Of a stretch of DNA of 39,874 nucleotides, positions 14,591-19,475 are shown one piece after another. The DNA is from Burkholderiaceae bacterium. GTDB taxonomy: Bacteria; Pseudomonadota; Gammaproteobacteria; Burkholderiales; Burkholderiaceae_C. The DNA lies in assembly GCA_023150375.1 (NCBI GenBank), contig JAKLLA010000029.1:1-39874 (forward strand). Direction: 5' to 3'. A program made the translations under genes and the position numbers. The notes under the pieces are model-generated. The model ran no database searches and was not told where the DNA came from. It saw only the letters and a program-made list of their open reading frames with translations. Position 1 is the stretch's first letter. Every line of letters starts with the position of its first letter.

Positions 14591-14666
14591 GCCGACTTAG
14601 CTCAGCTGGTAGAGCAACCGCCTTGTAAGCGGTAGGTCATCCGTTCGAATCGGATAGTCGGCACCA
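14591..14666 (+). tRNA. tRNA-Thr (anticodon TGT)
   Basis: A 76-base cloverleaf with the CCA end encoded. The acceptor stem is GCCGACT / AGTCGGC. The D arm is GCTC / GAGC. The anticodon stem ACCGC / GCGGT encloses the loop CTTGTAA with TGT at 14624-14626. The T arm is ATCCG / CGGAT around TTCGAAT. The anticodon reads ACA codons, plus other Thr codons by wobble. Confidence 0.97.
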
Positions 14667-16638: not shown

Positions 16639-18102
16639 ATGATCGCCCGCGAACCCACCCTCGAACGTCTGGCCACCGCACGGGGCCTGCTGCTGGAACC
16701 CTTCGGCCTGGAGGAGTCCGACCTGACGCAGGCTCTCAACCTGATCGCGGCGCACCGCGTCGACGACGCGGACCTGTACTTCCAGTACACCCGCAGCGAG
16801 GGCTGGAGCCTGGAAGAGGGCATCGTCAAGAGCGGCAGCTTCAGCATCGACCAGGGCGTGGGCGTGCGCGCAGTGGCCGGCGAGAAGACCGCCTTCGCCT
16901 ACTCCGACGACATCTCGGCGGCGGCGCTGCACGACGCCGCACGCACGGTGCGCAGCATCGCGGCGGCCGGCCAGAGCCGCCGGGTGCGCGTGGACGCACC
17001 GCGCCAGGTGGCAGGCAGCCGGACGCTCTACCGCGACCTGGACCCCATCGCCAGCCTCGACAGCGCCCGCAAGGTGGCCCTGCTCGGGAAGGTGGAAGGC
17101 CTGGCCCGCGCCAAGGATCCGCGTGTGGTGCAGGTGATGGCCGGGCTGGCCGCCGAGTACGACGTGGTGCTGGTGGCCCGCGCCGACGGCACCCTGGCCG
17201 CCGACGTGCGCCCGCTGGTGCGCGTGTCGGTCACCGTGATCGCCGAGCAGAACGGACGCCGCGAGGTCGGCTCCTCCGGCGGCGGCGGACGCTTCGGGCT
17301 GGAGCACTTCGACGACGCGCTGCTGGCGCGCTACGTCGACCGGGCCGTCGGCGCAGCCCTGACCAACCTCGACAGCCGCCCCGCACCGGCCGGCGAGATG
17401 ACCGTGGTGCTGGGCCCGGGTTGGCCCGGCGTGCTGCTGCACGAGGCGGTGGGCCACGGCCTGGAGGGCGACTTCAACCGCAAGGGCTCCAGCACCTTCG
17501 CCGGCCGCATCGGCGAGCGCGTGGCCGCCAAGGGCGTGACGGTGCTCGACGACGGCACCATCGCCGACCGGCGCGGCTCGCTGAACGTCGACGACGAAGG
17601 CAACGCCAGCCAGCGCAACGTGCTGATCGAGGACGGCATCCTGAAGGGCTACCTGCAGGACGCGATGAACGCCAGGCTCATGAAGACCGCCCCCACCGGC
17701 AACGGCCGGCGCGAGAGCTACGCCCATGTGCCGATGCCGCGCATGACCAACACCTACATGCTGGCCGGCGCGCACGACCCGCAGGAGATCATCGCCTCCA
17801 TCGACCGCGGGCTGTACGCCAGCAACTTCGGCGGCGGGCAGGTGGACATCACCAGCGGCAAGTTCGTCTTCTCCGCCAGCGAGGCCTTCTGGGTCGAGAA
17901 GGGCCGCATCCTCTACCCGGTCAAGGGCGCCACGCTGATCGGCAACGGCCCGGAGGCGATGCAGCGCGTCACGATGATCGGCTCGGACCTGGAACTCGAC
18001 GCTGGCGTGGGCGTGTGCGGCAAGGAGGGCCAGAGCGTGCCGGTGGGCGTGGGCCAGCCCACCCTGCGCATCGACGGCCTGACCGTGGGCGGCACGGCCT
18101 GA
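16639..18102 (+). CDS. tldD: TldD, catalytic subunit of the TldD/TldE metalloprotease
   Basis: A 487-residue protein of normal family length. The zinc motif is [13 protein letters not shown] (HExxxH, about residues 272-284). Upstream is [16 protein letters not shown], and downstream [11 protein letters not shown] and [16 protein letters not shown]. TldD and TldE (PmbA) form a barrel-like heterodimer that degrades unfolded peptides inside a closed cavity; in E. coli it matures microcin B17 and degrades the CcdA antitoxin. The partner gene lies 16 kb away at 33814-35193. No Shine-Dalgarno precedes the ATG, and the promoter position suggests a leaderless mRNA. Confidence 0.95.
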
Positions 18103-18144
18103 CCCCGCAGGGGATGCGCCGTCAGCCTTGCGCAATGCCGACCG

Positions 18145-18153
18145 TGCTACATT
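18145..18153 (+). promoter_or_regulatory. Extended -10 promoter of the aromatic leader
   Basis: TGCTACATT combines the TGn extension with a -10 hexamer (TACATT). A TTGCGC at 18128-18133 is spaced only 14 bases away, so the extended -10 probably carries most of the recognition. Transcription should start at about 18160-18161, one or two bases before the ATG of the leader peptide. Confidence 0.5.
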
Positions 18154-18161
18154 TGCGGCCT

Positions 18162-18245
18162 ATGTCGCGCACCGCGTTTTTCTTCGGCTTTTACTTTTGG
18201 TTCTCGCACCGCACCGGCGGCGGAGAGGCCAGCGTACACGCCTAA
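18162..18245 (+). CDS. Aromatic leader peptide (attenuator) of DAHP synthase
   Basis: A 27-codon ORF, ATG 18162 to TAA 18243-18245. Codons 6-14 read F-F-F-G-F-Y-F-W-F: six Phe, one Tyr and one Trp, eight aromatics in nine codons, followed by S-H-R-T-G-G-G-E-A-S-V-H-A. The aromatic run in a short ORF followed by an intrinsic terminator (18267-18298) and then the DAHP synthase gene is the hallmark of ribosome-mediated attenuation, as in trpL and pheL. All three charged aromatic tRNAs would be sensed, with Phe dominant. There is no Shine-Dalgarno, and the promoter position implies a leaderless or nearly leaderless ORF. Translation and regulation are inferred. Confidence 0.85.
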   Translation: MSRTAFFFGFYFWFSHRTGGGEASVHA

Positions 18246-18277
18246 GCAGAACGCTCGCAGACCCAGAAAACCGCCGG
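18214..18277 (+). promoter_or_regulatory. Candidate antiterminator helix of the aromatic attenuator
   Basis: CCGGCGG (18214-18220, inside codons 18-20 of the leader ORF) is complementary to CCGCCGG (18271-18277), the 5' arm of the terminator, and duplicates the terminator's 3' arm. AGCGT (18231-18235) with ACGCT (18251-18255) adds an inner helix flanking the leader stop codon. A ribosome stalled on codons 6-14 leaves 18214 onward free to pair; one waiting at the stop covers the inner helix. The pairings are seen in the sequence, while the switching model is inference. Confidence 0.55.
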
Positions 18278-18298
18278 AGCCCCCGGCGGTTTTTTTTT
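18267..18298 (+). terminator. Intrinsic terminator (attenuator) before DAHP synthase
   Basis: ACCGCCGG (18270-18277) pairs with CCGGCGGT (18283-18290) around the loop AGCCC. A run of nine T follows (18290-18298), and the A bases at 18267-18269 can extend the stem. It lies 21 bases after the leader stop codon and 55 bases before the DAHP synthase ATG, so it can only regulate that gene. Confidence 0.92.
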
Positions 18299-18353
18299 GC
18301 CCCTGGCCCGACCCTCACGCCCCGCCCACCCCTCTCGCCGACCTCACCCTGCC

Positions 18354-19475
18354 ATGAACGCCAAAGCCGCCCATCCGATCGCCGACAGCTGGCAAGCCCC
18401 CGTGGACAAGACCTCTCAGACCGACGACGAAAGGATCCACGACGTGACCCCGCTGCCGCCTCCCGAGCACCTGATCCGCTTCTTCCCGATCCGCGGCACC
18501 CCGGTCGAGGATCTGGTGGCCGGTACGCGCAAGTCGATCCGCCGCATCCTGCACGGCAAGGACGACCGCCTGCTGGTGGTGATCGGCCCCTGCTCGATCC
18601 ACGACCCGGCCGCCGCGCTGGACTACGCCCGCCGCCTGCTGCCGTTGCGCAAGCGCTACGCCGGCACGCTGGAGGTCGTGATGCGGGTCTACTTCGAGAA
18701 GCCGCGCACCACGGTGGGCTGGAAGGGGCTGATCAACGACCCCTACCTGGACGAGAGCTTCCGCATCGACGAGGGCCTGCGCATCGCGCGCCAGCTGCTG
18801 GTGGACATCAACCGCCTGGGCATGCCCGCGGGCAGCGAGTTCCTCGACGTGATCTCGCCGCAGTACATCGGCGACCTGATCAGCTGGGGCGCCATCGGTG
18901 CACGCACCACCGAAAGCCAGGTGCACCGGGAGCTGTCCTCGGGCCTGTCGGCGCCGATCGGCTTCAAGAACGGCACGGACGGCAACCTGAAGATCGCCCT
19001 GGATGCGATCCAGGCCGCCTCGCGCCCGCACCATTTCCTGTCGGTGCACAAGAACGGCCAGGTGGCCATCGTCACCACCAAGGGCAACCAGGACACCCAC
19101 GTCATCCTGCGCGGCGGCAAGAGCACCAACTACGACGCCGCCAGCGTCGCCGCGGCGGTGAAGGAGCTGGAAGGCGCGAAGCTCGCGCCGCGGGTGATGG
19201 TGGACTTCAGCCACGCCAACAGCAGCAAGCAGCACGAGCGCCAGATGGTGGTGGCCCGCGACGTGGCCGACCAGCTCGCCAGCGGCAGCCGCAGCATCTT
19301 CGGCGTGATGGTCGAGAGCCATCTGGTCGGCGGGGCGCAGAAGTTCACCGCCGGCAAGGACGACGTGAGCCGCCTGACCTACGGTCAGAGCATCACCGAC
19401 GCCTGCATCGGCTGGGAAGATTCCGAGCAACTCCTGGAAATCCTGCACCAGGCCGTGCTGGCGCGGCGCGGCTGA
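18354..19475 (+). CDS. aroG: 3-deoxy-7-phosphoheptulonate (DAHP) synthase, class I (AroF/AroG type)
   Basis: A 373-residue enzyme that condenses phosphoenolpyruvate and erythrose 4-phosphate, the committed step of the shikimate pathway. Family landmarks in order: V-V-I-G-P-C-S-I-H-D, M-R-V-Y-F-E-K-P-R-T-T-V-G-W-K-G, S-W-G-A-I-G-A-R-T-T-E-S-Q-V-H-R-E-L, G-F-K-N-G-T-D-G, and metal/substrate residues in V-D-F-S-H-A-N-S-S-K. The N-terminus is ~20 residues longer than E. coli AroG. Which aromatic acid inhibits it cannot be decided by eye; aroG is used here for the class. No clear Shine-Dalgarno precedes ATG 18354, and an upstream extension to 18297 would run into the terminator T tract. Expression is probably controlled by the attenuator. 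Confidence 0.95.
   Translation: MNAKAAHPIADSWQAPVDKTSQTDDERIHDVTPLPPPEHLIRFFPIRGTPVEDLVAGTRKSIRRILHGKDDRLLVVIGPCSIHDPAAALDYARRLLPLRKRYAGTLEVVMRVYFEKPRTTVGWKGLINDPYLDESFRIDEGLRIARQLLVDINRLGMPAGSEFLDVISPQYIGDLISWGAIGARTTESQVHRELSSGLSAPIGFKNGTDGNLKIALDAIQAASRPHHFLSVHKNGQVAIVTTKGNQDTHVILRGGKSTNYDAASVAAAVKELEGAKLAPRVMVDFSHANSSKQHERQMVVARDVADQLASGSRSIFGVMVESHLVGGAQKFTAGKDDVSRLTYGQSITDACIGWEDSEQLLEILHQAVLARRG

Follow-up and report, generated by a model that had tools for sequence, protein, structure and literature searches.

A conserved aromatic leader, probably a ribosome-mediated attenuator, upstream of proteobacterial DAHP synthase genes

The leader locus and its genome

The stretch of DNA analysed here (the window) has a length of 39,874 nucleotides, and all of its features named below lie on the + strand. 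A class I DAHP synthase gene of the AroFGH type (18354..19475), taken to be the controlled gene, is preceded by a short leader, directly upstream of which tldD (TldD/PmbA-type, 16639-18102) is located. The DAHP synthase was identified by PF00793 (E 5e-94) and TIGR00034 (535 bits, above cut-off), and the solved structures nearest to it carry the name Phe-sensitive or Phe-regulated DAHP synthase, which we take to be the E. coli enzyme. The leader ORF (18162..18245) encodes the peptide MSRTAFFFGFYFWFSHRTGGGEASVHA, 27 amino acids plus stop, in which the codons at 18177-18203 read F F F G F Y F W F. Across its six frames the window contains a single 10-codon stretch with seven or more F, W or Y, whereas 200 mononucleotide-shuffled versions contained 0.005 on average. 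An extended -10-like box, TGCTACATT (18145..18153), precedes the ORF and follows a TGnTAnnnT pattern shared across related loci.

Four segments of the leader RNA can be arranged into alternative helices. Segments 1 and 2 form a putative anti-antiterminator hairpin (18201..18227), in which UUCUC (18201-18205) pairs with GAGAG (18223-18227) and CCGC (18209-18212) with GCGG (18217-18220); folding and covariation in 100 aligned leaders point to this hairpin, with a weak shuffle z. Segment 2, CCGGCGG (18214..18220), is a copy of the terminator 3' arm within the ORF. Segment 3, CCGCCGG (18271..18277), is common to the antiterminator, with segment 2, and to the terminator, with segment 4. The latter, CCGGCGG, together with nine T constitutes the intrinsic terminator (18283..18298), whose stem (18268-18277/18283-18292) reads CCGCCGG-AGCCC-CCGGCGG and whose T residues occupy 18290-18298. 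The terminator folds with -16.8 kcal/mol (ViennaRNA), and a hairpin with a T run is present in all members of the 140-leader set described below. A simple scanner reported neither a promoter nor a terminator in 17900-18500, and the terminator call therefore rests on the ViennaRNA fold and on conservation. The ORF, its aromatic codons, the nine-T terminator, the CCGGCGG copy and the adjacent DAHP synthase gene had been listed in an earlier note on this DNA, and each was recovered in its place.

A tRNA gene (14591-14663) was the sole Rfam gathering match in the window, and no named leader family of NCBIfam scored above threshold. The genome encodes a second DAHP synthase (L001) that is 59% identical to the window protein, and no aromatic leader ORF was found upstream of it. 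A third PF00793 protein, recognised by eye, is presumably a KDO8P synthase. The pheA gene (L165) was considered as leader-bearing and rejected, as its single weak aromatic stretch is not a leader. A candidate trp leader ORF encoding MFLPRKRSITQVTGSHDRGAWPWRR, followed by a stop and including Trp-Pro-Trp, was observed at L164:1103-1180 (G000:C30), 320 nt upstream of the GTG start of trpE; a GCTACACT box lies shortly 5' of its ATG and no T-run terminator was seen at this candidate.

Distribution of the leader and its target

The related set consisted of 80 DAHP synthase loci, the best 80 among the matches listed. An ORF search for short ORFs with at least five aromatic residues in 10, located within 450 nt upstream of DAHP synthase, found an aromatic leader in 61 of the 80 loci (62 if an unrelated ORF in L082 is counted). 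The conserved aromatic codons upstream of class I DAHP synthase genes that the earlier note had proposed to look for are thereby found. A covariance model, R1, was built on alignment A1, which holds 61 sequences (the window and 60 related loci). R1 matched 63 of the 80 related loci, 60 of which had built the model, and added L005, L082 and the duplicate L067 to the ORF-search set; the match in L082 lies about 400 nt further upstream of the gene. Under strict filters no R1 match was obtained in 17 of the 80 loci, one of which (L038) has just 10 nt of upstream sequence.

For the wider searches genomes were sampled regardless of the leader, and the samples overlap. Among 300 genomes of the order, R1 had matches in 76 and, under strict filters, none in 224. 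In the class 7 genomes out of 369 were matched, in the phylum 53 out of 398 (E up to 0.01), and in a second class, presumably the Alphaproteobacteria, 10 out of 289. Every matching genome, including that of the window, had a single match. One sampled leader (L112) is identical to a model-building leader (L027). The 79 matches from the order and class searches that were not the model's own all directly precede DAHP synthase; at least five aromatic residues in 10 are found in 75 of them, and the other four are weak leaders, the weakest (L162) having one aromatic residue in its best 10. In the phylum search 24 of 33 further genomes were examined and 9 were left out; 20 of the examined matches lie before DAHP synthase, one before pheS and one before a chorismate mutase-prephenate dehydratase gene (Pfam), and two weak matches (E about 0.009) were judged not to be leaders. 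Of nine new matches from the second-class search, six are located before DAHP synthase and one is cut off by the end of its contig; the other two, which are weak (E 0.0016 and 0.0034), were rejected because they do not lie before DAHP synthase. Four matches in all (L187, L188, L198 and L199; E 0.0016-0.01) were set aside for this reason.

At E <= 0.001 and with downstream sequence available, 104 of 106 matches (79+19+6) are located directly before a DAHP synthase gene. The remaining two (E about 1e-3) precede pheS (L185) and pheA (L186), which are classical attenuator targets, and the peptide of the leader before pheS is presumably pheM. The leader family spans beta-, gamma- and, by inference, alphaproteobacteria, and it reaches, with its class, phylum and second-class matches, beyond the Burkholderiales, the order in which the earlier note had proposed to look for it. 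The four class-search matches outside the order belong to two families, and on the protein tree a named Xanthomonas locus clusters with three of them. In the second class, DAHP synthase leaders were observed at L170-L184, L190, L192, L193 and L195-L197, with cores such as YFWYFSY, and in several of them a TATAT-like box precedes the ATG by 7-8 nt. A small SRP RNA gene was seen shortly downstream of DAHP synthase at two loci of family f44 (L113:2773-2870 and L149:1592-1688).

Two DAHP synthases were present in 10 of the 16 genomes searched with the protein, and the leader precedes the copy closest to that of the window. A genome chosen for having no listed R1 match (G120) has a DAHP synthase. 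On a tree of 186 DAHP synthases the presence of the leader was clustered, requiring 10 changes as against 16.5 when shuffled, a comparison that is biased because most rows were picked for having the leader. Close relatives without a leader were found in Cupriavidus (L023, L041) and Polynucleobacter (L028, L030, L032); as these fall at two distinct positions within the leader-bearing part of the tree, they possibly represent losses.

Putative sensor codons, predicted transcription start and alternative helices

Leader composition was analyzed in a set of 140 leaders (the window, 60 related loci and 79 sampled leaders; L082 and its identical copy L067 were left out). It had been suggested that one leader lets the ribosome sense all three charged aromatic tRNAs. 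The necessary codons are present in the window and in 79 of the 140 aromatic cores, whereas 52 cores contain Phe and Tyr only; seven have Phe alone and two Phe and Trp, and Trp occurs in 81 cores. All three residues are found in 15 of 15 second-class leaders (L170-L184). At least five aromatic residues in 10 were counted in 136 of the 140 leaders, 60 of these loci having been selected for that feature. The order of F, Y and W varies among leaders, as does the peptide outside the aromatic core. Phe is encoded by TTT in 173 of 264 leader codons as against 69 of 442 in the DAHP synthase genes of the related loci (two loci omitted from the genes). Differences between similar leaders fell on codon positions 1, 2 and 3 in 189, 208 and 379 cases (113 pairs), such that the third position is favoured, not overwhelmingly.

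Of 39 loci, comprising the window and the leader loci numbered up to L050, 35 have the TGnTAnnnT pattern ending 6-8 nt 5' of the leader ATG. When 166 leaders were scored for TAnnnT with at least 4 of 6 positions matching, the box ended 6-9 nt before the ATG in 79, and in 98 under a looser rule allowing 5-9 nt; at gaps of more than 10 nt no single box position exceeds four leaders. Loci of the Burkholderia and Massilia type have a TATA-like box further up, as judged by eye. A Shine-Dalgarno-like word was detected in 5 of the 166 leaders and was absent from 161. The closeness of the box to the ATG and the scarcity of Shine-Dalgarno-like words suggest that many leader mRNAs are almost leaderless. 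In the window the predicted transcription start, at about 18160-18162, coincides with the leader ATG or is no more than 2 nt away from it, and translation from an almost leaderless RNA is predicted for roughly half of the leaders or more. Such translation has been reported for S. meliloti trpL (PMC7298713), and near-leaderless translation for several Streptomyces leader peptides (PMC8079986).

In each of the 140 leaders, folding identified a hairpin with 4 to 10 consecutive T behind it. Segment 2, which has the core GGCGG, follows the last aromatic codon at a median distance of 9 nt. This distance is about the reach of a ribosome with that codon in its A site. In the window the last aromatic codon coincides with the start of segment 1, and a stall at codons 10-14 should therefore hide segment 1 and leave segment 2 free; from the codon coordinates and this ribosome footprint, Phe10-Tyr11-Phe12-Trp13-Phe14 (18189..18203) are the likely sensor codons. 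The segment 2 copy had been proposed as an antiterminator, and once segment 1 was removed it paired with segment 3 in all 140 leaders. The 2:3 duplex was better than at least 95% of shuffles in 105 leaders and fell short of the best 5% in 35.

Conservation of the pairings was assessed on A1 (61 sequences) and on A3 (100 leaders). In the antiterminator 87.4% of cells were paired on A1, compared with at most 58.4% when slid, and 82.5% on A3, compared with at most 53.8%. A variable pair adjoining the core was U-A in 47, C-G in 46, U-G in 7 and A-U in 2 of 133 leaders (the 7 of 140 without the exact core were omitted), and the paired fraction of 0.77 exceeded both the permuted value of 0.59 and its maximum of 0.68. 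The antiterminator pair at -2/+2 gave no excess pairing (0.71 versus 0.70), and the number of double-change pairs in the antiterminator was not above shuffles (482/500 on A3, 285/500 on A1). In helices 1:2 and 3:4 together, 89.7% of the A3 cells were paired as against at most 60.6% when slid, figures that are favoured by the fitting of A3 to the model, and 10 of 17 pairs had changed on both sides. All five outer pairs of hairpin 1:2 show both-side changes in the 100 aligned leaders. The alternative pairings, for which the earlier note had proposed such a comparison, are conserved with compensatory changes, some covariation measures not rising above shuffles.

Hairpin 1:2 was only slightly more stable than dinucleotide shuffles (median z -0.92, best 5% in 23 of 140), and z fell below -2 in 21 of 140 leaders; a control region 5' of the ATG gave such values in 16 of 140. 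When segment 1 is present and segment 4 has yet to be made, the equilibrium still favours the 2:3 pairing in 127 of 140 leaders, so that the 1:2 step must act kinetically or matter less. In the full leader the terminator is absent from the best fold in 13 of 140. The stop codon lies at most 12 nt from the end of segment 2 in 57 leaders and further downstream in 83, so that translation through segment 2 is predicted for many leaders.

Proposed mechanism and comparison with known systems

Given the anatomy, conservation and target of the leader, the element very probably (probability about 0.9) controls the DAHP synthase gene as a ribosome-mediated transcription attenuator, with predicted leader translation, ribosome stalling and response to amino acids. 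On the best reading it would sense charged tRNA-Phe and tRNA-Tyr, and in addition Trp where the core has it. Transcription would begin at or beside the leader AUG, with a ribosome trailing RNA polymerase through the aromatic codons. When charged tRNA-Phe, tRNA-Tyr or tRNA-Trp is scarce, the ribosome would stall around codons 10-14 and cover segment 1; the emerging segment 3 could then pair with the free segment 2, the terminator would be blocked and the gene transcribed. With the tRNAs charged, the ribosome would proceed through segment 2 to the stop codon, and segment 2, either covered or folded onto segment 1, would leave segments 3 and 4 to pair, ending transcription with an RNA of about 140 nt.

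The conserved structure and its covariation would also fit an RNA that binds aromatic amino acids directly (a riboswitch) or a protein, the peptide being incidental. This is very unlikely, since the three competing segments make up nearly all of the constant RNA, the variable part encodes changing orders of F, Y and W with TTT-rich codons, and no Rfam leader or riboswitch family scored above threshold in the window or in 20 relatives. We regard it as extremely improbable that the hairpin is a mere terminator of the upstream tldD and the ORF a product of chance: tldD is the upstream neighbour in the window, and of the 93 leader loci for which a longer upstream stretch was available 59 also have it there, but the other 34 lack it within that stretch, a -10-like box lies between tldD and the leader, and the aromatic codons and segment 2 are conserved. 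There is hardly any likelihood that the main product is a trans-acting small RNA or peptide like rnTrpL/peTrpL of S. meliloti, with control of DAHP synthase secondary, because the examined matches keep their place before DAHP synthase and the peptide varies outside its aromatic core, even though there is a resemblance to rnTrpL (PMC7298713) in the near-leaderless start and the terminated product predicted here.

Beyond attenuation at this locus, it is conceivable, at rather less than even odds, that the leader represents an old and widespread proteobacterial control, in which a near-leaderless ORF adds up how far tRNA-Phe, tRNA-Tyr and, in many cases, tRNA-Trp are charged and lets the total aromatic supply gate the entry enzyme of the whole aromatic pathway, replacing TyrR/TrpR repression of the enteric type, with the F/Y/W mix retuned by lineage. 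If the attenuator reading is right, a short, easily searched RNA would predict how flux into Phe, Tyr, Trp and all chorismate products is set in many beta-, gamma- and alphaproteobacteria; control of the DAHP synthase step is, in our assessment, best known from enteric bacteria. The leaders would also provide a natural series with differing Phe/Tyr/Trp mixtures in which to study the integration of several amino acid signals by ribosomes, and a clear target when strains are engineered to produce aromatics.

The earlier note knew of no formal description of such an element. For a proteobacterial DAHP synthase leader family none was found in Rfam 15, NCBIfam 20 and the full-text literature, a scope outside which key subscription papers lie; leader attenuation of DAHP synthase as such, however, is described in Corynebacterium glutamicum and has been proposed in Acholeplasma. 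The aroR-aroF leader of C. glutamicum was reportedly described by Neshat et al. in 2014. It resembles the present element in placing an aromatic leader peptide (Phe-Tyr-Phe) before a DAHP synthase gene under attenuation by a stalled ribosome (PMC4046766, PMC11802643), and it has been exploited in strain building (PMC7356990). It differs in belonging to another phylum, F-Y-F being the only residues given in these accounts, and the likeness drawn here concerns the published description. Upstream of Acholeplasma aroF, the computationally proposed motif uORFC-13-1 (PMC8632094) likewise combines a uORF having Phe codons with an apparent intrinsic terminator before DAHP synthase; as presented there, it differs in having 24 representatives from Acholeplasma and environmental sequences, an RBS and at least one Phe codon. 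Attenuators upstream of Vibrio DAHP synthase-tyrA operons have been listed from Merino's predictions (PMC1173090), and a scan of Shewanella gives aroF an attenuator sensing Tyr-tRNA, citing work from 1980 (PMC2659441). For Phe/Tyr genes of Actinobacteria, PMC1262725 states that no conserved RNA elements lie upstream, and the terms DAHP, aroF and phenylalanine do not occur in the main text of a terminator survey (PMC2965389).

The attenuators of pheA and pheST (Rfam Phe_leader, RF01859) share a Phe-rich leader and mutually exclusive hairpins with the present element, and R1 matches L185 and L186; they differ in their target genes, and the window reached 21.2 bits with RF01859, below its gathering score of 55. 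The trpL-trpE(G) system of S. meliloti, in which rnTrpL begins with the ATG of trpL and is a terminated small RNA (PMC7298713), is similar in these two respects, both of which are predicted for the window leader, and differs in relying on Trp only and in targeting anthranilate synthase. The TyrR and TrpR regulons described in gammaproteobacteria, which in E. coli include aroF and aroH, also place the same enzyme step under control of aromatic amino acids (PMC5343134), but through DNA-binding regulators and with no leader peptide. The class of mechanism proposed here is thus already known, and what would be new is its breadth, the strict association with one target, the mixed F/Y/W sensor and the predicted near-leaderless start.
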